Positions 7,037 to 28,246 of a stretch of 64,000 nt of DNA are shown one piece after another. Made by a program: the position numbers and the translations under genes. The DNA comes from Micromonospora tarapacensis (lineage in GTDB: Bacteria; Actinomycetota; Actinomycetes; Mycobacteriales; Micromonosporaceae), in contig NZ_JAHCDI010000004.1 of assembly GCF_019697375.1 (NCBI RefSeq), positions 4,017,324-4,081,323 of the forward strand. Direction: 5' to 3'. Numbering within the stretch: the stretch's first letter is position 1; each line of letters starts with the position of its first letter. The notes beneath the pieces are model-generated. The model searched no databases. It was given only the letters and a program-made list of their open reading frames with translations, and was not told the DNA's origin.

Positions 7037-7224
7037 GCCGCTACCACCCAGCGCGGGCTTCTCAGCGGCGGCGTTACCAGTCGCTCATGAAGAACTGGCG
7101 GCGACTGCGCCAAGCCGACCCCGAGCAGCCGCAGAAGTGCCGGCATCAGCGGCGGCGGTTGCTGGAGGAGCTGCGGGCGCTGGACATGGAAGCCACCTCC
7201 CAGGAGTGGGCGTGCCGGAGGTGA
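7033..7224 (+). CDS. Small basic protein
   Basis: A 63-residue, very Arg-rich protein (MSRYHPARASQRRRY at the start) beginning in an ATGA overlap. Its charge suggests nucleic-acid contact, but no motif supports a specific role. Its last codons overlap the start region of the MT-A70 gene. Confidence 0.5.
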   Translation: MSRYHPARASQRRRYQSLMKNWRRLRQADPEQPQKCRHQRRRLLEELRALDMEATSQEWACRR

Positions 7225-7766
7225 GCAACGGGCCGGGCGCTCCGATCGAGCGCCCGGCCACGCCGAACCAGTACCGCACCATCCTTGCCGATCCGCCCTG
7301 GCAGACGAACCAGGTCGGCAAGCTCGGCGCGATCCGCCATTACCCGCTCATGTCGCTGGATGAGATCTGCGCCCTGCGTGTCGATCGGCTCGCCACGGAC
7401 GACGCACATCTGTGGTTGTGGGTGACCAACTCGAACTTTTTCGAGGGCATCGCGGTCATGGAGGCGTGGGACTTTGCGTACCGAAGCTGTCTGACGTGGA
7501 TCAAGCCGCGGTTCGGGCTCGGCAATTACCTGCGCAGCCAGACCGAGCACCTGCTATTCGGGATTCGTGGTCGCGCGCCGATCCAATTCCGCTCACAGGG
7601 CACGTGGTTCTACGCACCCGTCCAGGAACACAGCCACAAGCCGGAAGAACAGTACGCGATTATCGAGCGCTGCTCACCAGGGCCGTATCTCGAACTGTTC
7701 GCCCGTCGTCCGCGTCCTGGCTGGGACGTGTGGGGCAACGAGGTCACCTGCGACGTGGCGCTGTAG
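7212..7766 (+). CDS. MT-A70 family DNA adenine methyltransferase
   Basis: The 184-residue protein has the MT-A70/DPPW signature ILADPPWQ near residue 26 and conserved aromatic strands (HLWLWVTNSNF) typical of this N6-adenine methyltransferase family. The enzyme would methylate adenine in DNA (less likely RNA) using S-adenosylmethionine. GTG 7212 is chosen because AGGAG lies 5 bases before it; GTG 7221, overlapping the previous stop, is also possible. No restriction endonuclease lies next to it, so it is an orphan methylase, perhaps protecting the element on entry into a new host. Confidence 0.85.
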   Translation: MPEVSNGPGAPIERPATPNQYRTILADPPWQTNQVGKLGAIRHYPLMSLDEICALRVDRLATDDAHLWLWVTNSNFFEGIAVMEAWDFAYRSCLTWIKPRFGLGNYLRSQTEHLLFGIRGRAPIQFRSQGTWFYAPVQEHSHKPEEQYAIIERCSPGPYLELFARRPRPGWDVWGNEVTCDVAL

Positions 7767-15353: not shown

Positions 15354-17177
15354 ATGCGCATACTCTTCGACGTCCTGCAAGGGCTCGACCTCGGGCAACC
15401 GCTGCCGGACGGCATGAAACTTGCCGTCAGCTATCTACGGGTGTCCACCAGAGCCCAGACCGAGACCGACTACAACGAAGACGGACTGTCCCTCGCGGCC
15501 CAACGCGAGGCCAATCAGCGGAAGGCTGACCAGCTCGGTGCAGTCATCGTGGCCGAGTTCATGGACAAAGCTGAGTCCGCCAAGGCCGCCGACCGCCCCG
15601 AACTGCAAGCCATGCTCCAGTTCGTCCGCGAACTGGGCAACATCTCCTACGTCATCGTCGACAAGGTAGACCGGCTCGCTCGTAACCGAGAAGACGACGT
15701 GCTCATCAACATTGCCGTCCGGCAAGCCGGAGCACAATTCGTCTCCTCCAAGGAGAACATCGACGAGACGCCTTCGGGCAGGCTCCTGCACGGCATCATG
15801 GCGACCATCGCCGAGTTCTATTCCGCCAACCTCGCAATGGAGGCCATGAAAGGTATGCGCCAAAAGGCCAAGTTCGGTGGCACACCAGGACTCGCCCCAC
15901 TCGGTTACCGCAACGTCCGCGAACACGTCGACGGACGCGAGATCCGCACCGTAGCCATCGATCCAGACCGAGCGCCGCTCATCCAGTGGATGTTCAGCGC
16001 CTACGCAACCGGCGAGTGGACCATGAGCCAGCTCAAAGACGAGCTGGAGCGTCGGGGACTCCGCATCCCGGCTAGCCGCAAGCGACCGGCCCGCCCAGTC
16101 AGCATCCAGCACATCGACAAGATGCTCGTTAACCGCTACTACCTCGGCTATGTGAAGTTCGAGGGCATCTGGTACGAGGGCCGCCACCCGGCGCTCGTCG
16201 ACACCGGAACCTTCGAGCAAGTACAAGCTGTAAGAACGGCGCGGTCAGCCGCCAGGGACAAGCCGCAACGGCACCCGCACTACCTCAAGGGGTCGATCTT
16301 CTGCGGACGATGCAGGGGTCGGCTCGGCGTCACCAACGCCAAGAACCGCTGGGGCACCGTGTATCCGTACTTCTACTGCATCGGTCGCGCCCGTCACCGT
16401 ACCTGTACCCAGCCCGCGGTGCTCATCGCGGACGTGGAGGCATCGGTCGCGGACTACTGGACCCGTGTCCAGCTCTCCGACGCCCGCGTTGCCGCCATCC
16501 GCGAAGAGGTCATGGCCGAGTTGGTACGCCGCCAGCAAGGCAACCGCTCCGAACTAGAAAGACAGGAGAAGCGCAAGAAGGATCTACAGAACGAACAGCT
16601 CAAGCTGATCGAGATGCGCTACGCCGAAGCCATCCCGCTCGACCTGCTCAAGTCCGAGCAAGAACGCATCGCGCGGGAACTGGCAGGTACACAGCAGATC
16701 ATCGAACGCTGCTCCACCGAGATTGACGCCGTTCTCAGGGTGATCGAGGAGGCACTGCTGCTCTGCGCCAACGCGCACCGGCTGTACCTCAGCGCCACCC
16801 CGGACGTCCGCCGACAACTCAATCAGGCCGTGTTCGTCCGCTTCTGGATCATCGACGACCAGGTGCACGGCGCGGACCTGACCGAGACGTTCGCTCAGCT
16901 CCTCGCACCCGACCTCACCGAACAACTGGCCGAGATCGACGACACGAACCAAAACACCCAGCAGGCAAGGCGTGGCCGCCAGCCACGCCGACACCCGGCG
17001 CAGAGCGCCAACCTGGCAGTGGTGCGGCCCTCGGACGCCATACAGCGCCCGAACGGCCCGCTACCTGCCGACATGCAGAACCCCGGTCACGTTGACCGTG
17101 GCCGGGGTTCGAACATCCATACTCTGGTGGAGCCGAGGGGACTCGAACCCCTAACCCCCACACTGCCAGTATCGTAA
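15354..17177 (+). CDS. Large serine recombinase; tail read from an att repeat
   Basis: The 607-residue protein has an N-terminal resolvase domain with the catalytic serine in SYLRVSTRAQ (about residue 29) and the arginine helix region DKVDRLARNRED. A recombinase domain comes next, then a zinc ribbon (CGRCRGRLG ... CIGRARHRTC, about residues 322-350) and a long coiled coil (about 390-460), the order of large serine integrases. GGAAGGGG precedes ATG 15354. The last 16 residues (VEPRGLEPLTPTLPVS) are a translation of the tRNA-like repeat at 17126, so the natural C-terminus lies upstream of it or varies with att context. It probably moves the region 2 element. Confidence 0.85.
   Translation: MRILFDVLQGLDLGQPLPDGMKLAVSYLRVSTRAQTETDYNEDGLSLAAQREANQRKADQLGAVIVAEFMDKAESAKAADRPELQAMLQFVRELGNISYVIVDKVDRLARNREDDVLINIAVRQAGAQFVSSKENIDETPSGRLLHGIMATIAEFYSANLAMEAMKGMRQKAKFGGTPGLAPLGYRNVREHVDGREIRTVAIDPDRAPLIQWMFSAYATGEWTMSQLKDELERRGLRIPASRKRPARPVSIQHIDKMLVNRYYLGYVKFEGIWYEGRHPALVDTGTFEQVQAVRTARSAARDKPQRHPHYLKGSIFCGRCRGRLGVTNAKNRWGTVYPYFYCIGRARHRTCTQPAVLIADVEASVADYWTRVQLSDARVAAIREEVMAELVRRQQGNRSELERQEKRKKDLQNEQLKLIEMRYAEAIPLDLLKSEQERIARELAGTQQIIERCSTEIDAVLRVIEEALLLCANAHRLYLSATPDVRRQLNQAVFVRFWIIDDQVHGADLTETFAQLLAPDLTEQLAEIDDTNQNTQQARRGRQPRRHPAQSANLAVVRPSDAIQRPNGPLPADMQNPGHVDRGRGSNIHTLVEPRGLEPLTPTLPVS
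17126..17170 (-). repeat. att copy 1: tRNA-Ala(GGC)-like 3' end
   Basis: This 45-bp repeat matches 30733-30777 with one mismatch. On the minus strand it reads ACTGGCAGTGTGG (right half of an anticodon arm with GGC), a perfect T-arm AGGGGTTCGAGTCCCCT and CGGCTCCACC, fitting an alanine tRNA 3' end. The 5' half of a tRNA is missing, so it is an attachment-site copy. It overlaps the end of the serine recombinase gene. Confidence 0.75.
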
Positions 17178-17382: not shown

Positions 17383-19542
17383 CTACCTGCCGTCGGATGA
17401 GCCCACCCCGGCACCGGCGGTGGAAGTGCTCGTCTGTGAGGTTTCGACGGGACCGCTCGCGGGTTCGACGGCGAATGCCAGAAAGCGTGAGAGAGGCCCG
17501 TTGTGGGTCAGGTGCAGCTCGTGCATGGCTCTGGTGCAGGCGATGTAGAGCATGCATCTGTCCATCTCGTTGGTGTAGTTCGTGTCGGTGACGTGCGGGA
17601 CGATCACGGTGTCGAACTCCAGGCCCTTGGAGATGTGTGCGGTGGTGATGATGACGCCGCCGGCGAATTCTGTGCTGTCGTAGTCGAGGAACGTCAGCTC
17701 GACGCCGGCCTCGGACAGGGCCCGATGAAGCGCTTGCGCCTGAGCCGTGGTCTTGCAGATGATTCCGAGTGAACGGTGGTCGCTGTGTTGGTGCTGCTCG
17801 ACGAGGTCCAGAATCTGTGCCTCCTGGTCCTTCTGGTCTGCGCAGGCCACGAGCTGGGGTGGTCGGCCGTGGCGCTCGATCGGGATGATCTTGTCGTTCC
17901 TTGAGATGCGCTGGGCGAATCCCGTGATCTCCGTGGTGGAACGGTAGCTCTTGCGCAGCTCCAGACGGTCGGCTGCCGGGAAGATGCTGTGGATAGTCGA
18001 CGGTGTCGAGGAGCTGAACGGGTTGACCGACTGGTTGGAGTCGCCCAGGATCGTCATCCGGCAGGAGAACAGCTCGCGTACCACGGCGTACTGGATGGGC
18101 GTGTAGTCCTGCATTTCATCGATAAGCAGATGCCGGATGTGGCCGTAGCTTTCCTGGCGAGCCGTTCTGATCATGGTGTAGATCAGCGGGAACACGTCGG
18201 CGTACTCGATCTTCTTCCGACCGAGCGGCTTGAACAGGCCGCGGCGGGCAGGGTCGGCGTAGAAGGCCTTGTACATGGCGAGCGCGTCCCTGTAGGGGAA
18301 CATGGACAGGATCTGCTTGCGGACACTGGCGGTGTCGCTGGCCGTCCATTTGCCACCACTGTCCAGTACCTGCTGCTTGAGCAGGTGGACAGCAGTGTTG
18401 GCCAGGAGGTCGAGCCGGGTGAAGATCGGCAGGGTCGGCGACTCTTCGAAGGTGGCCGCGACCCACCTGGCGGCGAGTCGTCGGTTCTTGTGCACGACCT
18501 CGACCGGTACGAATTCTTCGTCCGGTCGCGCGGTGATCCATGCGTCCAGAGTAGTGACGAATTCTGGCGTGGCTTTGTAGCGCATGCGCTTGACCGCCGC
18601 TTCATCGACGTGGTCGAGAAGCTTGGCCACCTGCTCGCTGAAGGTCTCGAACTCCGTGATCTTGGCTAGGAACCTCGCGGCGATCGTGTTGAAGTCGATT
18701 TCCGCGATCTGCTCCTCACCCAGCTCGGGCAGCACGTTGGCGATGTAGTCGCCGAAGACCTTGTTCGGCGAGAGGATCATCACGTTGTCGGACGACAGGG
18801 TGTCCTTGAACCGGTAGAGCAGAAACGCCACCCGGTGCAGGGCGATCGAGGTCTTCCCGGAGCCCGCCACCCCTTGCAGGATCAGCACCTGTGCTGTCTC
18901 GTTGCGAATCACCGCGTTCTGTTCCCGCTGGATCGTCGCCACGATGTTCTTCATCTTGTCGTCGGCCGAATGGCTCAGCTCCCGCTGCAGGACGTCGTCG
19001 CCGATGTTGAGCGCGCTTTCGAACATGTACTCCAGGCGCCCGTCCTGGATCTTGTACTGGCGCTTTGCGGTGATCTCGCCGTCGGTCACGCCCTGCGGAG
19101 CCTCGAAGGATGCTTTCCCCGACTCGAAGTCGTAGTAGAGGCTGGAGACAGGAGCGCGCCAGTCGTGTACCACGATCTCCCGCGTCTTCGGGTCGGAGAA
19201 GCTGTGTACGCCAATGTAGTGGGCCTTGGCGTCCGCCTCGCCGATCGCACGGAAGTCGACCCGGCCGAAGTAGGGCGAATTCAGCAGCCGTTGGATGCGC
19301 TTCTTGACTATCACCGCGTGCTCGGCCAGGGCGACCGACGTGTTGACCTCGACGCGGACGTTGGCCTTCTCGACACCGTCCATGTCACGCCAGTGCGCCC
19401 ACATGTGTTCCTTGTGCCCCTGGATGGCACTGGCTGAGCTGTCGATGGTGCTGGTAACCCGTTCCAGTTCCGTCGCCAGCAGACGTACGGTTTCGGCGAG
19501 ATGCTGACGCTCTGCTTCGTCTTGTGTCTGCACGTCTGTCAA
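17383..19542 (-). CDS. helD: HelD-type RNA polymerase recycling ATPase
   Basis: The 719-residue UvrD/Rep-like protein has the HelD layout: an N-terminal coiled-coil arm (about residues 10-100), a region with HDWRAPVSSLYYDF, Walker A QGVAGSGKTSIALHR near residue 225, and helicase motifs including LIDEMQDYTP, GDSNQSVNPF and YIACTRAMHEL. HelD pulls stalled RNA polymerase off DNA; in some actinobacteria a relative (HelR) gives rifamycin resistance. I prefer TTG 19542 with GGAG upstream, because GTG 19578 would overlap the promoter dyad. The last 35 residues are Ser/Thr/Gly-rich and lie against the att arm. A HelD on a mobile segment is likely accessory, not the chromosomal copy. Confidence 0.85.
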   Translation of the reverse strand: MTDVQTQDEAERQHLAETVRLLATELERVTSTIDSSASAIQGHKEHMWAHWRDMDGVEKANVRVEVNTSVALAEHAVIVKKRIQRLLNSPYFGRVDFRAIGEADAKAHYIGVHSFSDPKTREIVVHDWRAPVSSLYYDFESGKASFEAPQGVTDGEITAKRQYKIQDGRLEYMFESALNIGDDVLQRELSHSADDKMKNIVATIQREQNAVIRNETAQVLILQGVAGSGKTSIALHRVAFLLYRFKDTLSSDNVMILSPNKVFGDYIANVLPELGEEQIAEIDFNTIAARFLAKITEFETFSEQVAKLLDHVDEAAVKRMRYKATPEFVTTLDAWITARPDEEFVPVEVVHKNRRLAARWVAATFEESPTLPIFTRLDLLANTAVHLLKQQVLDSGGKWTASDTASVRKQILSMFPYRDALAMYKAFYADPARRGLFKPLGRKKIEYADVFPLIYTMIRTARQESYGHIRHLLIDEMQDYTPIQYAVVRELFSCRMTILGDSNQSVNPFSSSTPSTIHSIFPAADRLELRKSYRSTTEITGFAQRISRNDKIIPIERHGRPPQLVACADQKDQEAQILDLVEQHQHSDHRSLGIICKTTAQAQALHRALSEAGVELTFLDYDSTEFAGGVIITTAHISKGLEFDTVIVPHVTDTNYTNEMDRCMLYIACTRAMHELHLTHNGPLSRFLAFAVEPASGPVETSQTSTSTAGAGVGSSDGR

Positions 19543-19576
19543 GGCGCTCTCCGGTTCAGGTTCCTGGCGGTAAACC

Positions 19577-19592
19577 ACTCTAACGTAAGATA
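19577..19592 (-). promoter_or_regulatory. Degenerate copy of the MerR-type dyad before helD
   Basis: On the minus strand TATCTTACGTTAGAGT keeps the central ACGT and the right half of ACCCTnACGTnAGGGT, followed by TGGTTT at the position where other copies have a TAnnnT box. It is weaker than the other seven copies. Confidence 0.45.
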
Positions 19593-19635
19593 AGAGTTGG
19601 GTGGCACCGGCGGCGAAGAGTGGCGGGATGCGGGA

Positions 19636-21231
19636 CTACCCGGCGGCGGGTAGGGGGTCCAGGGCGAGGCCAGGTCGACTGTCACCGATGGACCGCATGC
19701 GCCAGCCACTGGTGAACAGGGCCAGCAAGGCACCGTCCCGGACCCGGGTGAGCACCTCGGCGTCGGGAACGGCGCGTAGCCGTTCCTCGCTGGCCGGGTC
19801 GGTGCGACGGGCCACCTGGTAGGGCAGGTGTTCCAGTCGGGTGGTGACACCGAACTCGGCGTCGAGGCGGGCGACGGCGACCTCGAACTGCATCGGTCCG
19901 ACCGCGGCGAGCACGGGAGCCTGCTCGCCGCGGCGGTCGGAGCGGAGGACCTGGACGACGCCTTCGGCGTCGAGCTGCTCGACGCCGCGACGGAAGCGTT
20001 TGAAGGTGGAGGAATCGGCGGCGCGCAGCACGGCGAAGTGCTCGGGGACGAACGACGGCAGCGGCGGGAACGTCACGGCCGGACCGTCGTGCAGGGTATC
20101 GCCGATGCCGAGGGCGGTGGCGTTGACCAGGCCGATCACGTCGCCTGGGTACGCCTCGTCGATGGTCTCCCGGTTGGCGCCGAACATCTGCTGGGCGTAC
20201 TTGGTGGCGAAGGAGCGACCGGTGGCGGCGTGGGTGACGGTCATGCCACGGGTGAACCGCCCGGAGCAGACCCGAATGAAGGCCAACTGGTCGCGGTGGG
20301 CCTTGTTCATGTTGGCTTGAATCTTGAAGACAAAGCCGGCGAAGGGTGCGTCGACGGGTCGCGGGGTGCCGGCCACGTCGGGACGAGGGCCCGGTGCGGG
20401 GGCATGGGCCGCGAGGACATCGAGCAGTTGCCGTACGCCGAAGTTGGCGACCGCGGCGCCGAACAGGACCGGGGTGCTGGTGGCGGCGGCGAAGGCCGCC
20501 TGGTCGTGGTCGGCCCCGGTAAGGGAGAGCAGATCGAGTTCCTCGACCGTGCGGCGCCAGTCGGGGCCGTACTGGCGGGCCGCCTGCTCCGGGCCGAGCT
20601 GTTCCTCGATGGCCGCGGTGGCGCCGCCGGGGGTGCGCCGGAAGGCGGTCATCTGACCGGTGCGGCGGTCAACGATGCCGTGGAACTGTCCGGCGATGCC
20701 GACCGGCCAGGTGACCGGCGTGGGTCGCAGCTTGATCCGTTGCTCGATCTCGTCGAGCAGAGCGAGGGGTTCGCGGCCGGGGCGGTCCCATTTGTTGATG
20801 AACGTGATGACGGGGATCCGGCGGGCGCGGCAGACCTCGAAAAGTTTCAGGGTTTGTGGTTCGAGGCCCTTGGCGGCGTCGAGGAGCATCACGGCACAGT
20901 CCACGGCGGTGAGGACGCGGTAGGTGTCCTCGGAGAAGTCGGCGTGGCCGGGGGTGTCGAGCAGGTTGACGACCAGGTCGCGGTAGGCGAACTGCAGGAC
21001 GGCGGAGGTGATCGAGATGCCGCGCTGCTGTTCCATCGCCATCCAGTCGGAGACCACGCCCTTACGGCCGGCCTTGCCGTGGACCGCGCCGGCCTCCCCG
21101 ATGACCTGGGCGTGCAGCGCGAGCGCCTCGGTGATCGTGGACTTGCCGGCATCAGGGTGCGAGATCACCGCGAAGGTGCGCCGTCGGGCCGCCTCGGCGG
21201 CGACGCCGGTGATGGTTGCCGCCGACGGCAC
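19636..21231 (-). CDS. prfC: Peptide chain release factor 3-like GTPase
   Basis: The 531-residue translational GTPase has G1 SHPDAGKST (near residue 24), G2/switch I with QQRGISITSAV, G3 DTPGHADFSEDTYR and G4 INKWDRPGREP. The DTPGHADFSEDTYR and GREP contexts are those of RF3 rather than EF-G or TetM; G4 is NKWD where NKLD/NKFD is usual. RF3 recycles RF1/RF2 and aborts faulty translation. GTG 21231 has AGGAGG 8 bases upstream. A perfect copy of the ACCCTnACGTnAGGGT dyad lies 39 bases before the start. Its place in a MerR-controlled mobile set points to a stress or antibiotic response role. Confidence 0.85.
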   Translation of the reverse strand: MPSAATITGVAAEAARRRTFAVISHPDAGKSTITEALALHAQVIGEAGAVHGKAGRKGVVSDWMAMEQQRGISITSAVLQFAYRDLVVNLLDTPGHADFSEDTYRVLTAVDCAVMLLDAAKGLEPQTLKLFEVCRARRIPVITFINKWDRPGREPLALLDEIEQRIKLRPTPVTWPVGIAGQFHGIVDRRTGQMTAFRRTPGGATAAIEEQLGPEQAARQYGPDWRRTVEELDLLSLTGADHDQAAFAAATSTPVLFGAAVANFGVRQLLDVLAAHAPAPGPRPDVAGTPRPVDAPFAGFVFKIQANMNKAHRDQLAFIRVCSGRFTRGMTVTHAATGRSFATKYAQQMFGANRETIDEAYPGDVIGLVNATALGIGDTLHDGPAVTFPPLPSFVPEHFAVLRAADSSTFKRFRRGVEQLDAEGVVQVLRSDRRGEQAPVLAAVGPMQFEVAVARLDAEFGVTTRLEHLPYQVARRTDPASEERLRAVPDAEVLTRVRDGALLALFTSGWRMRSIGDSRPGLALDPLPAAG

Positions 21232-21269
21232 TTACTCACCTCCTACTGCTCGATCCGATCCCGAACAAT

Positions 21270-21285
21270 ACCCTCACGTTAGGGT
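21270..21285 (-). promoter_or_regulatory. MerR-type dyad before prfC-like gene
   Basis: On the minus strand ACCCTAACGTGAGGGT, a perfect 5+5 dyad, is followed directly by ATTGT so that the last T starts a TATTGT box. Confidence 0.75.
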
Positions 21286-21309
21286 TGTCCGCTGGGGGTA
21301 GGTGGAAGG

Positions 21310-21744
21310 TCAGGTGCTGGTGGTGGCGCGGGACACGGTGGGCGATTGCAGCGTCTCCATGTGGCCGGTCAGGGTGGCAGCGAACCCCTCGGCGGTGGCG
21401 AGTTGCGACCGCAGCGCGGCGCAGCGCTCGTGGACAGCCTCGCGGTAGCCCGCGAGCGTGTCGAGCAGTCGCTCGCGTTCGGCCTTGGACAGGCGGGCGC
21501 CTGCGGAGAGTCGATCGACGATGGCCAGCAGGTCGCGCATCTGCTCCAGCGTGAACTCCAGTGGCTTCATCCGCTTGACCACCTGCAGCCGGTCCACGTC
21601 GGCGTCGGTGTAGAGGCGGAAGCCGCCCTGGCTGCGGGCGGAGGGGACGATCAGGCCCACCTCCTCGTAGTAGCGGATCGTGCGCAGGCTCAGCCCGGTC
21701 CGCTCGGCCACCTCGCCGATCTGCATCAGTGCACCGTCACCCAT
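21310..21744 (-). CDS. MerR-family regulator
   Basis: The 144-residue protein starts with a typical MerR winged helix (MQIGEVAERTGLSLRTIRYY from residue 7, then GGFRLYTDADVDRL) and a dimerisation coiled coil. The C-terminus is short and has no ligand-binding domain of the TipA/BmrR type. Only one cysteine is seen, so metal sensing is unlikely. ATG 21744 is chosen because the HTH begins at once; a GTG at 21852 would add 36 unrelated residues. A dyad copy at 21900 suggests autoregulation. It is the obvious candidate to act on the repeated dyads of region 2. Confidence 0.85.
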   Translation of the reverse strand: MGDGALMQIGEVAERTGLSLRTIRYYEEVGLIVPSARSQGGFRLYTDADVDRLQVVKRMKPLEFTLEQMRDLLAIVDRLSAGARLSKAERERLLDTLAGYREAVHERCAALRSQLATAEGFAATLTGHMETLQSPTVSRATTST

Positions 21745-21899
21745 CGCTTCCGTCCCGCCTCCCGATCGCGCTCGCAAGCCGGTGGCGCCCACCGGTCGAC
21801 TGCCGTTCAGGCTAGCCGGCACCACCGCGAGCGACAGCAACCTGCCGAGCACACGTCCTGGCCTGATGCGGGCGGGCCGCCAGCCTGAGCCACAACTCT

Positions 21900-21915
21900 A
21901 CCCTCACGGAAGGGT
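21900..21915 (-). promoter_or_regulatory. MerR-type dyad before the merR gene
   Basis: On the minus strand ACCCTTCCGTGAGGGT, followed by AGAGT so that TAGAGT forms the -10-like box. It lies 156 bases before ATG 21744, leaving a sizeable leader if the box is used. Confidence 0.7.
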
Positions 21916-21930
21916 CAGCAGGGGTGGGTG

Positions 21931-23052
21931 TCAACCGTCGTGCAGGAGACCGCCGGCCCGGCGTACCTCGCGGTCGGCCTCGTCGTGGGTCAGGCCGGTG
22001 GTGCCGAGCAGGTCCGTGGCGATCGCGCGGACCTGGGCGACCACGACGTTGCCGGAGAAACCCACGCCCTGCCGGTAGGCGGCACTCGCCTCGCGCACGG
22101 CCCGGCACAGCAGATCGACTGCCTCCTGAGGTGCCCGTCCACGACGAAGGTCACGGCGGATGACCTTGGCCGCCTCCGCCAGGGCCGCCACCGATTCCCC
22201 CAGTTGCGGCGGGCTGGGTTCCCCGTCGCGCAACAGCGTCACCGTTCGTCGGGCGAGCACCCGGGCGTTACGGATCGACCGTTCGATGTACTCGGCGGCG
22301 TCGAGGTACTGGCGCAGAGCGTTGCGCGCGTGCCAGCGCAGCGGAGTTATCGTCGCCGCCTCCTGCCCCTGCGGCAGGATCTCATGGAACGCGCCGAGCT
22401 TGTCCTCACCTTCACTGAGCAGCACCAGAGCGTCGTGGGCGGGGCCGTCGTCCTGCTCGCGCAGGCCGCGAGCGGCGCCGTGCAGACCGTCGATCAGCAC
22501 GCCGAGAGCGGGCTTGGCGACCCGGGACACCACGGTCAGCGGGTTGACCGGCAGCAGCACCGCCATCACCACCAGCGCGACCCCGCCACCGATCAGCGCG
22601 TCGACGACCCGGGAGAAGTAGATGCCTTCGGTGGGCGGGGTGAGGGTGGCGATCAGCACCGCCGAGGCTGCCGCCTGGCCGACCACGGCTGCCGTGCCGC
22701 CAGCTGCCACGGCCGCGCCCATCGCCAGTGCCACCGCCACCCCGATCTGCCAGCCGCCGGTGCCGACGAACCAGATGAGTCCATCGCCCACGGCGATGCC
22801 CAACGCCACTCCGAAGACCAACTCGACGGCGCGTCGGTATCGCTGCCCGGTGGATATTCCCAGCGTGATCACTGCGGAGATAGGGGCGAAGACCGGCTCC
22901 GGATTCCCGACGACGCGGCTGGCCACCGCCCAGGACACGGCGGCGGCCACCGAGGTCTGCACCACGACGACCGCCAGGGCACGCAGCCGCTGCCACCGTT
23001 CCCGCGCGATGTCGGCCGTCCGGGCTCGGAGCCGTACGGCGCTTCCGCTCAT
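21931..23052 (-). CDS. FUSC-type aromatic-acid-exporter-like membrane protein
   Basis: The 373-residue protein has about six hydrophobic segments in its first 190 residues (for example ALAVVVVQTSVAAAVSWAVA, ELVFGVALGIAVGDGLIWFV), with the FAPISAVITLG motif region of FUSC proteins. A cytoplasmic helical half follows. The family exports aromatic acids or similar small molecules, or acts in envelope stress. ATG 23052 has GGTGGAGAAA upstream. I see no clear dyad copy in front of this gene, unlike its neighbours, so its control is uncertain. Confidence 0.75.
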   Translation of the reverse strand: MSGSAVRLRARTADIARERWQRLRALAVVVVQTSVAAAVSWAVASRVVGNPEPVFAPISAVITLGISTGQRYRRAVELVFGVALGIAVGDGLIWFVGTGGWQIGVAVALAMGAAVAAGGTAAVVGQAAASAVLIATLTPPTEGIYFSRVVDALIGGGVALVVMAVLLPVNPLTVVSRVAKPALGVLIDGLHGAARGLREQDDGPAHDALVLLSEGEDKLGAFHEILPQGQEAATITPLRWHARNALRQYLDAAEYIERSIRNARVLARRTVTLLRDGEPSPPQLGESVAALAEAAKVIRRDLRRGRAPQEAVDLLCRAVREASAAYRQGVGFSGNVVVAQVRAIATDLLGTTGLTHDEADREVRRAGGLLHDG

Positions 23053-23162
23053 CCGAGTTTCTCCACCGCCGGCTCTGTCACGGCTCACACGCTAGGCATC
23101 GGGAGAGCCAGGATGGCACTGGATCGTCCCAGTTCGCTCCGATGAGCACTCACTTCATTTCG

Positions 23163-23178
23163 TCTCTCACGTGAGGAT
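23163..23178 (+). promoter_or_regulatory. MerR-type dyad before the first ARH-like gene
   Basis: TCTCTCACGTGAGGAT keeps the centre and most of both arms of the dyad. TAGGGT starts at its last base and ends 6 bases before GTG 23190, so the transcript would have practically no leader. Confidence 0.65.
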
Positions 23179-23189
23179 AGGGTTGTCAG

Positions 23190-24146
23190 GTGACGGACCT
23201 GTGGATCTCACCTGACCGGGCCCGGCTGCGGGTGCGCGGCTGCCTGCTCGCCGCCGCCTGTGGCTACGCGCTGGGCGTGCCGTTCGCGGGACAGGACCGG
23301 CCGGACGGTGACGATTTCGATGCGGCTGCCCGCGCCGGTGGCCCCCTTTACACCGGGCAACCTGTCGCCGTGATGCTTGAACATGCCCGGCACCTGGCCG
23401 GTGCCGACGGTCGGCCGGTCGATGCGGTGACCGCGATAGCCGAGCGGTGGGTGGACCGGTGGGAGCGGGACGACGCGCTCGGCGGCCAGCTGCGGCCGCA
23501 CGGCAGGCCGTGGCCGGGACCCGAAGGCATCCCGGCGGGCACGCCCGTTGCTGACATCTTGTTGGCGATGGTGCCCGTCGGGCTGCTACCGCTGTCGTCG
23601 GATCGGGTCGCCGCGATCGTCCGAACCGGGATTCCCGATGGGTACGGCCCGCTCGTCCGGGAGGCGGCGGTGGTGCTGGCGTGTGCAGTGGCAGCGGCCT
23701 ACACCAGCGACACGGCCACGCCGGTGGATCGGCTCGGTTTCGGCTCGCGACTGGCGCAGCTGGCCGCCGAGATCCGACTGGCCGAGCGCGTGACGGCGGT
23801 GGCCGCCCTCGGCAGCCTCACCGCCGAGGACCTCGCACGACGGATGGCGCCCACCCAGGATCCGGTGATGCCCCTGGTGCCGGCGGCCGTGGCGGCGTTC
23901 CTGCGCCATCCCGACAACCCCGCCGCCGTCGTTCGCTACGCCGTCAGCCTCAACGCCGGCAGCGCCGCCGTCGCGGGAATGGCCGGTGCGATCGCCGGAG
24001 CCCGGTGCGGCGGCACGCTGCTGCCCGCACCGTGGCTGCGTCGTCTGCAGGGCCGCGACCCGATCACCGAGGTCGCCGACGCCCTGACGCCAGCCCGGTC
24101 CAGAAACCTGGAGCTACGCCAGCACCGCGGTCCACACGCGTATTGA
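23190..24146 (+). CDS. ADP-ribosylglycohydrolase-family protein lacking metal motifs
   Basis: The 318-residue protein follows the DraG/ARH fold: RGCLLAAACGYALGVPFAG at the start, a middle with VPVGLLPL and a C-terminal LNAGSAAVAGMAGAIAGA. In active family members the N-terminal motif contains GDA, the next one TDDT and the C-terminal one GDTDT, which hold two magnesium ions. Here they read GYA, YTGQ and NAGSA, so hydrolysis by the usual mechanism is unlikely. It may bind ADP-ribose or a related ligand, or a partner protein. It is probably made from a leaderless mRNA driven by the dyad promoter at 23163. Confidence 0.75.
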   Translation: MTDLWISPDRARLRVRGCLLAAACGYALGVPFAGQDRPDGDDFDAAARAGGPLYTGQPVAVMLEHARHLAGADGRPVDAVTAIAERWVDRWERDDALGGQLRPHGRPWPGPEGIPAGTPVADILLAMVPVGLLPLSSDRVAAIVRTGIPDGYGPLVREAAVVLACAVAAAYTSDTATPVDRLGFGSRLAQLAAEIRLAERVTAVAALGSLTAEDLARRMAPTQDPVMPLVPAAVAAFLRHPDNPAAVVRYAVSLNAGSAAVAGMAGAIAGARCGGTLLPAPWLRRLQGRDPITEVADALTPARSRNLELRQHRGPHAY

Positions 24147-24478
24147 GCACCAGATCACACCGTCGCGTCGCCCCACCCAGACTACACTCGCACGTTAGAG
24201 TAGGGTCGCGGAGCGCTGATCGTACGGCCGGCGCTGCGACGCCTCGGGGTGACGGGTTTTGTCCTACCTTCCCGCCTCCCCGGGGCGACGTCGCCCGCCC
24301 GGCAGGGCAGGGTGGAAGCCGATCGGCAGGCAATGGTGACCCGGCGGTCCCACCGGTGGCGCGACCGTCCGCCGCTGACATGATCGTCCTACCGCAGTGA
24401 CAACCCATCCCCGCCCGACCCGTGCGACCGGGGCGGGACGCCCGCGCGTCGCGGCGCGCGCCGACCACAGTGAGGCTT
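24147..24478 (+). promoter_or_regulatory. Promoter and long leader of the MFS gene
   Basis: This 332-bp stretch contains the dyad at 24186 with its TAGGGT box, then about 270 bases of leader. The leader holds a 6-codon ORF (24380-24400, MIVLPQ) and a strong stem CCCGCCC/GGGCGGG between about 24411 and 24438, shortly before GTG 24479. Such a layout would suit attenuation control, but no experiment or comparison supports it yet. No other gene is visible. Confidence 0.4.
24186..24201 (+). promoter_or_regulatory. MerR-type dyad before the MFS gene
   Basis: ACTCGCACGTTAGAGT, followed by AGGGT so that TAGGGT forms the box, as before the gene at 23190. The sequence between this box and the MFS start is unusually long. 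Confidence 0.65.
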
Positions 24479-25771
24479 GTGACCACCACCTGGCGCTCCA
24501 CAACCGCACCCGAACCCACGAGCGGCTTCCACGGATGGCGGATCGTCGGCTACGCCGCAGTGGCGCTGGCGATGACCGCACCCGGCCAGACCGTGGCGGT
24601 GTCCGCCTTCGTCGACCCGCTCATCGCCGACCTCGGTATCAGCCGGTCGGCGATCTCCACCGCGTACCTCATCGGCACCCTGACCGGGGCGGCGGCCCTG
24701 CCCGCCATCGGCCGGATGATCGACCGCCACGGGGTACGTAGCTGCATGCTGATCATCGCGGCAGTGTTCGGCGCCGTGCTGATCGCACTGTCGACCGTGT
24801 CGGGAATCATCGGGCTGACCGCCGGATTCGTCGGTATCCGGATGGCCGGACAGGGCGCACTCGGTCTGGCCGCGACCACCGTCACCGCGCACTGGTTCCG
24901 GCGTCGGCGGGGTTTCGCGCTGGGGCTCGTCTCCGCCGTGGGCGCCGCAGGGATCTCACTCGCCCCGCTCCTGCTGGAACGGCTCATCGCCCATCACGGC
25001 TGGCGTACCGCCTGGTTTGTCGAAGGGCTTCTCGTGTGGGCGATCGTCATCCCGATCGCGCTGCTCGGCATCCGAAACCGTCCCGAGGACATCGGCCAAC
25101 AGGTCGACGGCGCGTCGGCGGACAGCCACCCGGCAGGCAGCCACGTCGCCGACCTCGACCACCGCCAGGCGCTGCGTACGCCGTACTTCTGGGTGCTCTG
25201 CGGCAGCGTCGCGACCTCCGGCCTGCTCACCACCGCCGTGGCGTTCCACCAGATCAGCCTGCTCACCGAACGAGGACTCACCACCGCGGCCGCAGCGGCA
25301 AATTTCCTGCCGCAGACCCTCGCGGGGCTCGCGATGACTCTGCTCGTCGGCGCCATTGTCGACCGCGCCAACCCTCGCGGCGTGCTCCTTGCCGCGATGG
25401 CCGGGCTGGCCGCAGCGCTGGTCTGGGCGACCCAGGTCACGCCGGGCTGGTCGGCACTCGGGTTCGGCATGGCCATCGGTGCCGCTTCCAGCGCCATCCG
25501 CACGGCCGAGGCGGCCCTGACTCCGCGCCTGTTCGGAGTCGCGCATCTGGGAGCCATCCGCGGGACGGTCACCGCCGTCAACGTCGGCTCGACCGCGTTC
25601 GGGCCCGTGTTGTTCGCCCTCGGACACGACCTGACCGGTAGCTACAACGGGGCCTTGCTGATCGGTACGGCGCTACCCCTGGCCGTGGGCGCCGCCGCGC
25701 TCCTGGCCCCACTGCCGGCCCACGAGCGCGGCCTCCCTCAGCGACCCCAGGGGTCGGCGGCGGCTCGATGA
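24479..25771 (+). CDS. MFS transporter
   Basis: The 430-residue protein has about twelve transmembrane segments in two halves, with the motif-A-like loop GRMIDRHGVR after the second segment and WFRRRRGFALGLVSAVGAAG in the middle of the first half. This is typical of the monocarboxylate/oxalate-formate-type MFS branch. It probably moves a small organic compound, by inference a drug or stress-related metabolite. GTG 24479 is chosen because the longer frame from 24422 has an Arg-rich, unlikely N-terminus. A dyad promoter lies about 280 bp upstream. Confidence 0.8.
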   Translation: MTTTWRSTTAPEPTSGFHGWRIVGYAAVALAMTAPGQTVAVSAFVDPLIADLGISRSAISTAYLIGTLTGAAALPAIGRMIDRHGVRSCMLIIAAVFGAVLIALSTVSGIIGLTAGFVGIRMAGQGALGLAATTVTAHWFRRRRGFALGLVSAVGAAGISLAPLLLERLIAHHGWRTAWFVEGLLVWAIVIPIALLGIRNRPEDIGQQVDGASADSHPAGSHVADLDHRQALRTPYFWVLCGSVATSGLLTTAVAFHQISLLTERGLTTAAAAANFLPQTLAGLAMTLLVGAIVDRANPRGVLLAAMAGLAAALVWATQVTPGWSALGFGMAIGAASSAIRTAEAALTPRLFGVAHLGAIRGTVTAVNVGSTAFGPVLFALGHDLTGSYNGALLIGTALPLAVGAAALLAPLPAHERGLPQRPQGSAAAR

Positions 25772-25812
25772 CCCCTGGCTGCCAGCCGCACCGGGGACAC
25801 CTCAGCAACTCT

Positions 25813-25828
25813 ACCCTTGCGTTAGGGT
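25813..25828 (+). promoter_or_regulatory. MerR-type dyad before the intact ARH gene
   Basis: ACCCTTGCGTTAGGGT with complete outer arms, followed by ATGGT so that TATGGT forms the box. The proposed start ATG 25861 is 32 bases further on. Confidence 0.75.
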
Positions 25829-25860
25829 ATGGTCTTCAGCGGCGGAAGGTGGTGAGCGGG

Positions 25861-26829
25861 ATGTTGCGAGCGCGGTTGAGCTGGTCGCACCGGGTACGCG
25901 GCTCGATGGTGCTGGCAGCCTGCGGTGACGCTCTCGGCGCGCCGTTCGAGGGTCGGGAACCGGCGGACCGGGCCGAGATCGACGACTGGATAAACCAGTC
26001 GACCCAGCTCGTGCGGTTCACCGACGACACCGCCTCAACCCTCGTCGTGGCGGATCACCTGACGCGCAGGCGAGGCACGGTGAATGAGGACGAACTCGCC
26101 GACGAACTCGCCCGGGAGTGGGCGCGCGACCCTGAGCGCGGCTACGGCCATGGTGCCGCCCAGCTCTACGCCGAGCTGGCCCGCGGCGTCCCGTGGCGGC
26201 GAGCCGCCGCAGAGCTGTTCGATGGGCAGGGCTCGTTCGGCAACGGTGCGGCGATGCGTGTCGCCCCGATCGGTCTGCTGCCCGGCCTGGCCCTCGACGC
26301 GGTGGCCGGACGCGCCCGCCGGACCGCGGCAGTCACCCACCAGCACCCCCAGGCCGTGGACGGCGCGGCGGCGCAGGCGGTCGCGACCGCCCTGGCCGCA
26401 CTCTCGGTTCAGGACACACCGCTGGACGCCGAATGGATGGTCGCGACGCTCTGCGAACATGTGCACACGGCCGAGTTTCGCAGCGCGCTGCGACGGGTGC
26501 CCGCGCTCGTCGCCCAAGGCGCCCACACCACCGACGTGGCCGGCGCGGTGGGCAACGGCGTCGCGGCGATTCAGGCCGTGCCCGCCGCGCTGGCTGCCTT
26601 CCTACGCCAACCCGACGACACCCCCGCTGCCGTCGGTTTCGCGATCGGCCTGGGCGGCGACACCGACACCATCGCCTCCATGACCGGCGCATTGTGCGGG
26701 GCCCGCCGCGCGGAGAAGGACCTCCCCGTCATGTGGGGTTTGAGGCTGGAGGGCGCAGCGCGGGTCTGGACGGCGGCCAGCGCCCTAGCCGAACTCGCCG
26801 CAACAGCTGCCGGGACGCGGCGGGGGTGA
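25861..26829 (+). CDS. ADP-ribosylglycohydrolase with intact metal motifs
   Basis: The 322-residue protein has all DraG/ARH signatures: AACGDALGAPFEG near residue 20, FTDDTAST near residue 55, GNGAAMRVAPIGLL near residue 125 and GLGGDTDTIASMTGALCGA near residue 260. Family enzymes remove ADP-ribose from arginine, serine or small molecules using two magnesium ions. ATG 25861 is preceded by GGAAGG; a GTG at 25852 is also possible. It is the only one of the three ARH-like proteins here likely to be catalytic. The substrate cannot be read from sequence. Confidence 0.85.
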   Translation: MLRARLSWSHRVRGSMVLAACGDALGAPFEGREPADRAEIDDWINQSTQLVRFTDDTASTLVVADHLTRRRGTVNEDELADELAREWARDPERGYGHGAAQLYAELARGVPWRRAAAELFDGQGSFGNGAAMRVAPIGLLPGLALDAVAGRARRTAAVTHQHPQAVDGAAAQAVATALAALSVQDTPLDAEWMVATLCEHVHTAEFRSALRRVPALVAQGAHTTDVAGAVGNGVAAIQAVPAALAAFLRQPDDTPAAVGFAIGLGGDTDTIASMTGALCGARRAEKDLPVMWGLRLEGAARVWTAASALAELAATAAGTRRG

Positions 26830-27080
26830 CCCGGACGGCGCCCCGCCGCCGGCCGCCCCGTGCCGTCGGCTGCCGGTACCTGCGTCGCTAAACGACGCCG
26901 CCGAGGCCGCGCGGCGTACGGTCGTCCGCTGCGACCGACCCCAGGCATACCGTCGCCGCGGCCATGGCAGCCATGCGGGAGCCGGGCCGGGCACACCCGG
27001 CAGCGACCGATGCCACGGCCGTGAGTCATCGCCTCGCCGAGTCATGGGCTGATCCACCGTCGACGGCGCAGCAGCGGCCG

Positions 27081-27269
27081 TCATCGACTCTCGAACCGCT
27101 CGACCCGCTGCACGTCCTCCCACCGCAACACCGACACCTCCCGCCAGTGGGTCGCACAGGCGGAGCCGCTGCGGCGCTCGAAGGTCACGACCCTCCGGTC
27201 GTGTCGGCACCGGTCAGCCGGCACAGTCAGCAGGCTGCCGTCGGTCAGCCACACGAAGAACTGAGTCAT
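27081..27269 (-). CDS. Small hypothetical protein under a dyad promoter
   Basis: A 62-residue protein (MTQFFVWLTDGSLLTVPADR at the start) with several predicted beta strands and one Cys. ATG 27269 has GGGGAGG 4 bases upstream. The dyad at 27314 lies 45 bases before it, with TAGATT as its box on this strand. It is transcribed away from the third ARH-like gene. The function is unknown; its promoter makes it a member of the proposed regulon. Confidence 0.6.
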   Translation of the reverse strand: MTQFFVWLTDGSLLTVPADRCRHDRRVVTFERRSGSACATHWREVSVLRWEDVQRVERFESR

Positions 27270-27313
27270 GACGCCTCCCCTGCTCTGCGGGCACCCACCC
27301 ACCCGACAAATCT

Positions 27314-27329
27314 ACCCTGACGTAAGGGT
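27314..27329 (-). promoter_or_regulatory. MerR-type dyad before the 62-residue protein
   Basis: A perfect copy; on the minus strand ACCCTTACGTCAGGGT followed by AGATT (TAGATT box). It lies 30 bp from the next dyad, giving a divergent pair. Confidence 0.75.
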
Positions 27330-27359
27330 TCGCCGATAGTACGGCACCTCAGGCCAGCA

Positions 27360-27375
27360 ACCCTCACGTCAAGGT
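27360..27375 (+). promoter_or_regulatory. MerR-type dyad before the third ARH-like gene
   Basis: ACCCTCACGTCAAGGT with one arm mismatch. TAGAGT begins at its last base and ends 8 bases before ATG 27389, again predicting a leaderless or near-leaderless mRNA. Confidence 0.7.
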
Positions 27376-27388
27376 AGAGTGTCGACCG

Positions 27389-28246
27389 ATGACATCCACT
27401 GGCCTGCCGATGGCACAGCTGCGCGACCGCAGCCGCGGCTGCCTGATCGCGGCCGTCCACCGCCCGCCCACAACACCCACTGCCCGCCTGCCCGCCACCT
27501 GGCCCACGGGGCCGCTCGACCAGCCTGCCGCCCGCGTCGTCGCCCATGCACGGCACCTCGCCGCCTATCCCGACACCTGCGACGAGCCGCCGAGCTATGT
27601 CGAGGGGCTGATGGCCGCACTGACCGTGGCGTGGGGGTGGAACGACGCGGCGGCGCGGGGCATCATCAGGGACGGCGTCCACCTGCTGTGCGCCGTGCCG
27701 GCCGGGCTGCTGCCCGGACCACTCGGAGACCTCGGCCGACGCGCTCGGCTGGCCTGCGCCGTGCTAGGTGGGGATGCCACGGCCCAGCAAGCCAGCATGG
27801 TCGTCGCCTACGCCGTGGCGATGGCCTACCGCGCCGCGAGCACCCGCAAGGTGGACCGCTTCGACTTCTGCTACCGCCTGGCACACCTGGCCGCCGACGA
27901 CCGCCTGGCCGAACGCCTCGCCCGCGTCGCCGCCCTCGGCGACCGCGACCCCGACCAGGCTGCCGCCCACCTACTGGCTGACGGCAGCGACCGCGACCGC
28001 GTCAGCATCGGCGTGGCCGCGTTCCTGAGACACCCGGCGGCGCCTGACGCAGCGGCCCCGTTCGCCGCCACCGTCGCCGACCCGCCCAGCGCTGGCATCG
28101 CCGCCGCACTGGCCGGCGCGTACGCCGGAACAGCCGCGCTCCCCCACACCTGGCTGCGCGACACCACCCGCACCGCAGCGATCAGCGACGCCTCGGACGC
28201 ACTGGTCGCGCTCGCCTCTCGCCGGCAAACGCTGCGCTCCTGCTGA
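27389..28246 (+). CDS. Degenerate ADP-ribosylglycohydrolase-like protein
   Basis: The 285-residue protein is related to the gene at 23190 (shared pieces include the RGCL start, a VVAHARHLAAY segment, CAVPAGLLPG and KVDRFDFCYRLAHLA versus PVDRLGFGSRLAQLA). It lacks the GDA, TDDT and GDTDT metal motifs of the family. The start is shortened and the segment between residues 20 and 45 is Pro/Thr-rich. It is probably a binding or regulatory paralogue rather than an enzyme. ATG 27389 lies almost at the predicted transcription start. Confidence 0.65.
   Translation: MTSTGLPMAQLRDRSRGCLIAAVHRPPTTPTARLPATWPTGPLDQPAARVVAHARHLAAYPDTCDEPPSYVEGLMAALTVAWGWNDAAARGIIRDGVHLLCAVPAGLLPGPLGDLGRRARLACAVLGGDATAQQASMVVAYAVAMAYRAASTRKVDRFDFCYRLAHLAADDRLAERLARVAALGDRDPDQAAAHLLADGSDRDRVSIGVAAFLRHPAAPDAAAPFAATVADPPSAGIAAALAGAYAGTAALPHTWLRDTTRTAAISDASDALVALASRRQTLRSC

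Follow-up and report, generated by a model that had tools for sequence, protein, structure and literature searches.

A 16-bp dyad abutting -10-like boxes is linked to a small MerR-family regulator and to SulP, RF3 and HelD genes in actinobacteria

A 64,000-nucleotide stretch of Micromonospora tarapacensis (GCF_019697375.1, contig NZ_JAHCDI010000004.1, positions 4,017,324 to 4,081,323; hereafter the window) carries eight copies of a 16-bp dyad beside genes for a HelD-type RNA polymerase recycling ATPase, peptide chain release factor 3 (RF3), a MerR regulator, membrane transporters and ARH-family proteins. We consider it reasonably probable that these sites are operators of a small, sensor-less MerR regulator, which would control its own gene, a SulP transporter gene and, in some actinobacteria, an enlarged regulon. 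The sites and genes are listed below; TAnnnT boxes are given as predicted -10 elements, and ORF denotes an open reading frame.

17383..19578 (ORF limits), minus strand: HelD1, RNA polymerase recycling ATPase, Bacillus-type (Class I-like), from NCBIfam and PDB matches
19577..19592, no strand assigned: weak dyad before helD1, no TAnnnT on the helD side, found with a position-specific scoring matrix (PSSM)
19636..21231, minus strand: RF3 copy a (RF3a), prfC equivalogs above cut-off, RF3_C domain present
21270..21285, minus strand: dyad and -10 TATTGT before RF3, pattern match
21310..21852 (ORF limits; conserved protein from MQIGE, about 21726), minus strand: MerR1 regulator, Pfam MerR_1 E=3.4e-19
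21900..21915, minus strand: dyad and -10 TAGAGT before merR1, pattern match
21931..23088, minus strand: FUSC-type membrane protein, upstream of merR on the same strand, FUSC_2 E=3.6e-18
23163..23178, plus strand: dyad and -10 TAGGGT before ARHa, whose start codon is at dyad position 28, pattern match
23190..24146, plus strand: ARHa, ARH-family protein without metal-binding residues, PF03747 E=1.5e-14, NAGSAA instead of GGDTDT
24186..24201, plus strand: dyad and -10 TAGGGT before the MFS gene, about 220 bp upstream of the MFS ORF, pattern match
24422..25771, plus strand: MFS transporter of a lactate/oxalate-formate-like branch, MFS_1 E=1.7e-31, best NCBIfam model SfMCT, below cut-off
25813..25828, plus strand: dyad with TAnnnT on both sides, before ARHb, pattern match
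25849..26829, plus strand: ARHb, ARH3-like hydrolase with catalytic residues kept (TDDTA, GGDTDT), PF03747 and ARH3-type structures
27081..27269, minus strand: small conserved protein of 62 aa, missing from the earlier gene list; relatives adjoin a dyad in L002, L006, L009 and L147
27314..27329, minus strand: dyad and -10 TAGATT facing the small protein, pattern match
27360..27375, plus strand: dyad and -10 TAGAGT before ARHc, pattern match
27389..28246, plus strand: ARHc, degenerate ARH-family protein, PF03747 E=1.4e-5, just below cut-off, no catalytic motifs

The eight dyads claimed in the original prediction all exist, in greater number than chance provides. A search of the 64-kb window with ACCCTnACGTnAGGGT, allowing up to three mismatches, returned nine matches, against a mean of 2.16 and a maximum of 8 in 100 dinucleotide shuffles, none of which reached nine. 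Seven of these matches are sites listed above (21270 and 27314 with no mismatch; 21900, 25813 and 27360 with one; 23163 and 24186 with three), the remaining two (27623 and 57170) are chance-like, and the eighth site, 19577, is weak and was recovered by the PSSM. As claimed, a TAnnnT box begins at the last T of the dyad in seven sites (TATTGT, TAGAGT, TAGGGT, TAGGGT, TATGGT, TAGATT and TAGAGT along the window). Each copy had also been placed directly before a gene, which holds for these seven on their box side; 19577 stands before helD1 but reads TGGTTT on the helD side, and the true start of HelD1 must lie slightly downstream of the site. The 27314 site with its TAGATT is likewise real, but faces the 62-aa minus-strand ORF and not ARHc, and no site with TAnnnT faces the FUSC gene at 21931-23088 on the minus strand. 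The dyad sits at the centre of an extended palindrome, AACTCT-ACCCTnACGTnAGGGT-AGAGTT. Across 144 kb (the window plus 80 kb beside it), 20 sites score at least 17, against 0-1 in 8 Markov simulations; since these 20 sites were also the training set of the matrix, this demonstrates clustering and not independent significance.

Twelve of these 20 sites lie outside the window and form a second cluster. A whole-genome search with two mismatches gave 22 forward-strand matches against 9 for the reversed pattern, and the other AT-type copies group on the same contig, 27-49 kb to the right of the window end, where the PSSM places the 12 sites (C4:4107955-4130541). The genes there encode a weakly Wzz-like protein; ARH2a and ARH2b; ARH2c, followed by merR3 and RF3b; a small protein; a UDP-sugar dehydrogenase, followed by ARH2d; RNase J, followed by UppP; and HelD2, with two sites, followed by MFS2. 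The sites at 4118072 and 4130541 have no clear gene. RF3, HelD, MFS, FUSC and ARH genes are present in both clusters, and beyond the second one SulP is followed by merR2, with a poor site only (score 12.6). A large serine recombinase lies near helD1 (window 15354-17177) and a Tn3-type transposase piece beside RF3b (L002:14184-15065), hinting that the clusters may be mobile islands. No known RNA element was detected in the window at gathering scores.

The original prediction had called for a scan of actinomycete genomes, and in a sample of 396 genomes of the phylum the motif with its TAnnnT box does recur and co-occur with MerR. A blind scan for the exact motif plus TAnnnT matched 13 of the 396 genomes, against 1 of 396 for the reversed pattern, and 11 of the 12 motif genomes besides the window's own have MerR, SulP or RF3 adjoining. 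Motif and MerR occur together in 12 genomes, the motif only in 1, MerR only in 19 and neither in 364 (Fisher p=6.7e-14, uncorrected for genome kinship). The MerR search of the same sample identified 31 genomes; among 30 MerR loci, 19 have a site scoring at least 15 within about 1.5 kb, and three more (G102, G278, G294) have one just outside. When loci were chosen by MerR alone (at least 50% identity, with up to 10 kb of DNA fetched on each side), the motif was found at a score of at least 13.5 in 20 of 23, the exceptions being L017, L020 and L028, in genera including Micromonospora, Nocardiopsis, Myceligenerans, Demequina, Nocardioides and Jonesia. Across 32 neighbourhoods, each comprising the ORFs within 5 kb of a site, the gene families seen in at least four were MerR (25), SulP (24), RF3 (9), MFS (5), SpeE-like (4), ARH (4) and FUSC (4), and no regulator besides MerR recurs at that frequency. 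The phylum-wide core is merR with a SulP transporter gene, sometimes joined by RF3 and MFS. A spermidine-synthase-like gene also recurs beside the merR locus (L149, L150, L157, L010, L011), and in L149 and L150 it faces a two-sided site shared with merR.

Expanded sets are not restricted to the genome of the window. G515, from another genus of the Micromonosporaceae, has 14 sites scoring at least 16 in two regions whose arrangement differs from that of the window's genome, and beside them are two SulP, two MerR, RF3, UDP-sugar dehydrogenase matches, five ARH matches, MFS genes, RNase J, two HelD and UppP. This expanded regulon of its own speaks against a one-off arrangement, although gene transfer between the two genera is conceivable. 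Separate RF3 genes of G515, G499 and G487 have a site just upstream (scores 22.0, 21.5 and 15.8, the first two without TAnnnT). In the family scan, 15 of 21 other matching genomes were looked at, and 13 of these show MerR, SulP or RF3, with nothing of the set in L161 and L162; the six left out were chance-like, one of which, G435, has RF3 beside its site (L176).

The pairing also extends to plasmids, where MerR is encoded on 44 of 72,556 records (E<=1e-18). Twelve plasmid loci, including several similar Streptomyces plasmids, were examined; in every one SulP lies at most four genes from merR, and a site scores at least 15. A Cellulosimicrobium plasmid carries merR-RF3-MFS-SulP and then RNase J, with sites before merR (no TAnnnT) and before SulP, an order that links both RNase J and RF3 with the set beyond the Micromonosporaceae; the same plasmid bears a cyclic di-AMP riboswitch (L236:491-649). 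On a Pseudonocardia plasmid, ARH and dTDP-rhamnose epimerase genes (L244:2435-3409, 7139-7714) are each accompanied by a motif copy (16.4, 17.1) whose TAnnnT faces the gene. The gene crcB lies beside merR-SulP in 2 of the 12 plasmid loci, with no dyad site just before it in either. Gordonia plasmid pGKT1 has a fluoride riboswitch (L245:8620-8706) before crcB, adjoining a SulP-merR pair; none was found before the Streptomyces F8 crcB at gathering score, where fluoride as the regulon's signal is a weak lead. Arsenic resistance genes occur near merR in two of the 12 plasmids (F12, KTR9) and other metal-linked genes in two more (L236, L238). A metal signal is not supported, the MerR having no invariant cysteine: a cysteine is found at one alignment column in 26 of 52 sequences and at no other column in 5 or more. 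Likewise, no metal-sensor cysteine is among the invariant MerR columns, and the NCBIfam metal-sensor models all fall below their cut-offs.

MerR1 itself scores above the Pfam MerR family cut-off, and its predicted AlphaFold structure (mean predicted local distance difference test, pLDDT, 93.9; dimerisation helix 81-127) is nearest to CadR, CueR, HiNmlR (a sensor-less NmlR), MtaN and TipAN, many of the matches being DNA-bound MerR-family structures. The model depicts an ordinary MerR winged helix-turn-helix plus a long dimerisation helix, with no sensor domain. The C-terminal TipAS antibiotic-binding domain is not present, as the protein ends shortly past the dimerisation helix at about 140 aa. 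A site upstream of merR itself is frequent among the loci, and in the window a merR gene with its own dyad had been correctly recognised (the 21900 site, with TAGAGT, before merR1). The half-site ACCCTnACG of the site logo is identical to that of the mta (ACCCTAACG) and skgA (ACCCTCACG) probes, operators of TipA-class MerR proteins (PMC7762955), and because of this identity it is very likely that the MerR protein binds the present sites. One apparent regulon with these members is thus borne out, and co-occurrence, sites before merR, the lack of any other shared regulator and this half-site together support MerR as its likely regulator.

Of 109 distinct sites, 96 have TAnnnT on one side or both, 30 of them on both; in an earlier site set it was present at 87 of 99 sites, against 16 of 987 for nearby T's. 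As first noted, no good -35 is seen: 59 oriented sites show no -35-like enrichment upstream, nor any extended -10 or hidden -35. The -10 starts at the last base of the dyad, 7.5 bp from its centre. In MerR-family promoters the -35/-10 spacing is 19-20 bp with the operator in between (PMC9909328), and known operators are 21-22 bp long (PMC5045206). The 16-bp core dyad is 5 bp shorter than TipA-class operators: in the probes of PMC7762955 two 9-bp half-sites lie 3 bp apart and the -10 starts about 12 bp from the centre (reckoned from the probes, assuming a 19-bp spacer), whereas in the present sites the two half-sites share 2 bp. A 21-bp register, ACYCT-N11-AGRGT, is exact in 40 of 96 sites.

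The sequence flanking the dyad suggests a longer contact. At 66 sites with a one-sided TAnnnT, the opposite flank still favours mirror bases (p from 6e-6 to 0.04), with T at 0 in 23 sites, C at -1 in 41 (p=1e-5), Y at -2 in 46, C at -3 in 31, A at -4 in 17 and A at -5 in 25 (p=6e-6), the sorting having already removed sites with a full TAnnnT at the back. Since A at -5 mirrors T at 22, a position outside the -10, this preference reaches beyond the -10, and a protein footprint of 26-28 bp is likely. Within these 26-28 bp, ACYCT is separated from AGRGT by 11 bp, as in TipA-class operators, in each of two registers offset by 5 bp. If MerR binds as a canonical dimer, two dimers may then sit on opposite faces of the helix. 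ATG or GTG occurs at dyad positions 28, 29 and 30 in 9, 5 and 6 of the 59 oriented sites, against about 2.4 per position over 31-80; given a spike of 10 at position 23 that has no such meaning, this lends modest support to leaderless transcripts, and the ARHa transcript would be leaderless if its predicted -10 is right.

Given the observed sites, their boxes, the missing -35, their conservation and their linkage to MerR, we infer both binding and activation by MerR. Under this reading, MerR1 and its paralogues would act on their own genes and on the SulP anion transporter gene, and in some actinobacteria the regulon may have been enlarged to include RF3, Class I-like HelD, RNase J, UppP, UDP-sugar dehydrogenase, MFS exporters, an ARH3-like hydrolase, several pseudo-ARHs and the 62-aa protein. 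The core dyad would consist of two TipA-type half-sites (ACCCTnACG) overlapping by 2 bp, and the flanking ACYCT/AGRGT repeats would extend it to a 26-28 bp palindrome equivalent to a pair of 21-bp MerR operators that overlap and are offset by 5 bp. The outer half-site on one side would then coincide with the -10 box (TAGRGT), and the flank bearing TAnnnT would set the direction of transcription. With neither a -35 nor an extended -10 in these promoters, MerR probably supplies the recruitment of RNA polymerase. A more specific scheme is conceivable, if rather doubtful: each site would be two MerR operators on opposite faces, half a helical turn apart, one of them containing the -10; MerR would replace the -35, and the choice of register or double filling would serve as an off/on switch in either direction, so that these promoters would coordinate transcription-translation rescue (of RNA polymerase, ribosomes and RNA) without WhiB7.

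Several observations weigh against the proposal of a MerR operator with an enlarged regulon. TAnnnT is missing from 13 of the 109 distinct sites, and the sites before RF3b and before the RF3 genes of L178 and L181 carry none. Eight of the 30 MerR loci of the phylum sample have neither a site scoring at least 15 nearby nor an exact-scan match, and one motif genome, G237, lacks MerR, with no MerR, SulP or RF3 beside its motif. Close MerR genes have a site within 2.5 kb in 53 of 66 cases, a figure that is partly preselected, since sites were collected with a matrix built from G000 and some loci were fetched for the motif; among distant MerR genes, mostly from non-actinobacterial genomes, it is 3 of 61, one of them (L172) beside a real site. 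The family scan with up to one mismatch is noisy, with matches in 22 of 200 genomes against 12 of 200 for the reversed pattern, and single-site family matches are therefore not all real. The third RF3 of the genome (2581854; L204:9831-11602) is 92% identical to RF3a and has no site even at a score of at least 9; it adjoins a merR relic upstream, with a SulP-merR pair 4 kb away. Among 30 family RF3 loci examined, only 10 have a site scoring at least 15, five of these below 16, which makes RF3 a part-time member; as an obligate partner it is ruled out by the other 20. Lastly, HelD, UppP and UDP-sugar dehydrogenase genes with sites were seen within Micromonosporaceae only.

A serious but less probable alternative is that MerR binds these sites and merely represses, its operator covering the -10 and the genes being freed on its release. 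In the 21-bp register the second half-site does contain the -10, and MerR relatives that only repress, such as HspR and CarH, exist; repressors usually guard good promoters, however, and a promoter with neither a -35 nor an extended -10 would be expected to have very low unregulated activity. It is improbable that the motif belongs to another protein, for instance an unlinked global regulator, with MerR just one of its targets. At 16 bp the dyad is shorter than expected for a canonical MerR dimer, and both the eight MerR loci without the motif and G237 would fit such a regulator, but the 21-bp register would remove the length problem, the half-sites match MerR operators, and MerR is the sole regulator travelling with the motif in the loci examined, plasmids included. 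Still harder to credit is the classical mechanism of the original prediction, with the dyad inside an over-long -35/-10 spacer that is untwisted upon activation: the canonical fold, TipA-type half-sites and poor promoter agree with it, but 59 oriented sites show no conserved -35, and the dyad abuts the -10, is 16 bp long instead of 21-22 bp (PMC5045206) and is centred 7.5 bp from the -10 instead of the reckoned 12 or so. Finally, chance or repeat-driven sites with no regulatory role can be all but dismissed: duplication could make clusters that share RF3, HelD, FUSC, MFS and ARH genes, but in many genera whose flanking sequences have otherwise diverged the motif and TAnnnT still accompany the same genes, and the back-flank preference also speaks against it.

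Among known systems, the TipA-class MerR proteins (TipAL, Mta, SkgA) share with the present one the half-site ACCCTnACG, the winged-helix fold and MerR autoregulation. Unlike them, the present MerR lacks a TipAS sensor domain, and its sites have overlapping instead of spaced half-sites, no TTG -35 fused to the operator, and many targets. Short MerR proteins of the CueR/CadR/NmlR type differ in the invariant cysteine that is absent here and in their known operators of 21-22 bp with a -35. The WhiB7/WblC antibiotic-stress regulon, of which HelR is a member, similarly places many resistance and protection genes under one regulator. WhiB7 is a regulator of a different family, however, and depends on an AT-rich element adjoining the -35 (PMC4921905), none of which was seen at positions -34 to -6 in the 59 oriented sites. 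The B. subtilis rifampicin alarm on helD likewise expresses a Class I HelD on demand, but from two convergent promoters (PMC12802891), in contrast to a shared operator here, with back-to-back TAnnnT in 30 of 109 sites. In line with the original prediction that no described system has this membership, a literature search (with subscription literature thinly covered, mostly as titles and abstracts) found no description of the motif, the regulator or the gene set, and exact motif fragments matched only the TipA paper, via a tipA fragment. Within MerR regulation, we regard the operator layout and the set of targets as new.

Both HelD copies pass the NCBIfam HelD_BACSU equivalog cut-off of 419 bits, HelD1 with 535 and HelD2 with 546; HelD1 does not reach that of HelD_MYCSM (115 bits, cut-off 1051), and its PDB matches include 6wvk (E=1.8e-103) and 6yxu (E=6.8e-23). 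These two Bacillus-type (Class I-like) genes in one actinobacterium (window 17383-19578; L003:5383-7680) contrast with the class distribution in PMC8655204, where actinobacterial HelD is Class II, Coriobacteria excepted. The set had also been said to contain ADP-ribose-related proteins: three ARH-family proteins are indeed present in the window, but only ARHb (PF03747 E=1.5e-55 with the longer ORF 25768-26829; ARH3-type structures E=1.8e-35) keeps the catalytic residues. Across both clusters, the metal-binding TDDTA and GGDTDT motifs are kept in ARHb and ARH2c only, and the other five of seven homologues form a pseudo-hydrolase set beside the two intact proteins (window 23190-24146 and 27389-28246; L002 8784-9701, 9853-10803 and 16945-17901). 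The small protein, of about 60-90 aa (VWLTDGTLL...ADRCR...RW.DV.RVER), was found in five copies (window 27081-27269, L002:16230-16502, L006:1033, L009:929, L147:5108), all with a dyad at most about 160 bp upstream, and TAnnnT faces four of them.

The targets of RF3, HelD and RNase J are ribosomes, RNA polymerase and RNA, respectively; UppP recycles a cell-wall lipid, SulP moves anions, and the MFS and FUSC proteins resemble exporters. From these activities we infer that the gene set may constitute a stress regulon, some members of which would clear stalled polymerase, ribosomes and RNA while others would transport anions and drugs. In B. subtilis, resistance to rifampicin is increased by Class I HelD (PMC12802891). 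Overall, these results describe a widespread actinobacterial MerR-SulP module, carried on chromosomes and plasmids, with a putative operator precise enough to search for and to test. In some strains, the module appears to have recruited rescue machines (RF3, HelD, RNase J) as well as exporters, and it thereby gives a way of learning when these factors are needed. In addition, a dyad set against the -10 with no -35 does not fit the textbook MerR mechanism, a mechanistic question that can be tested in vitro.

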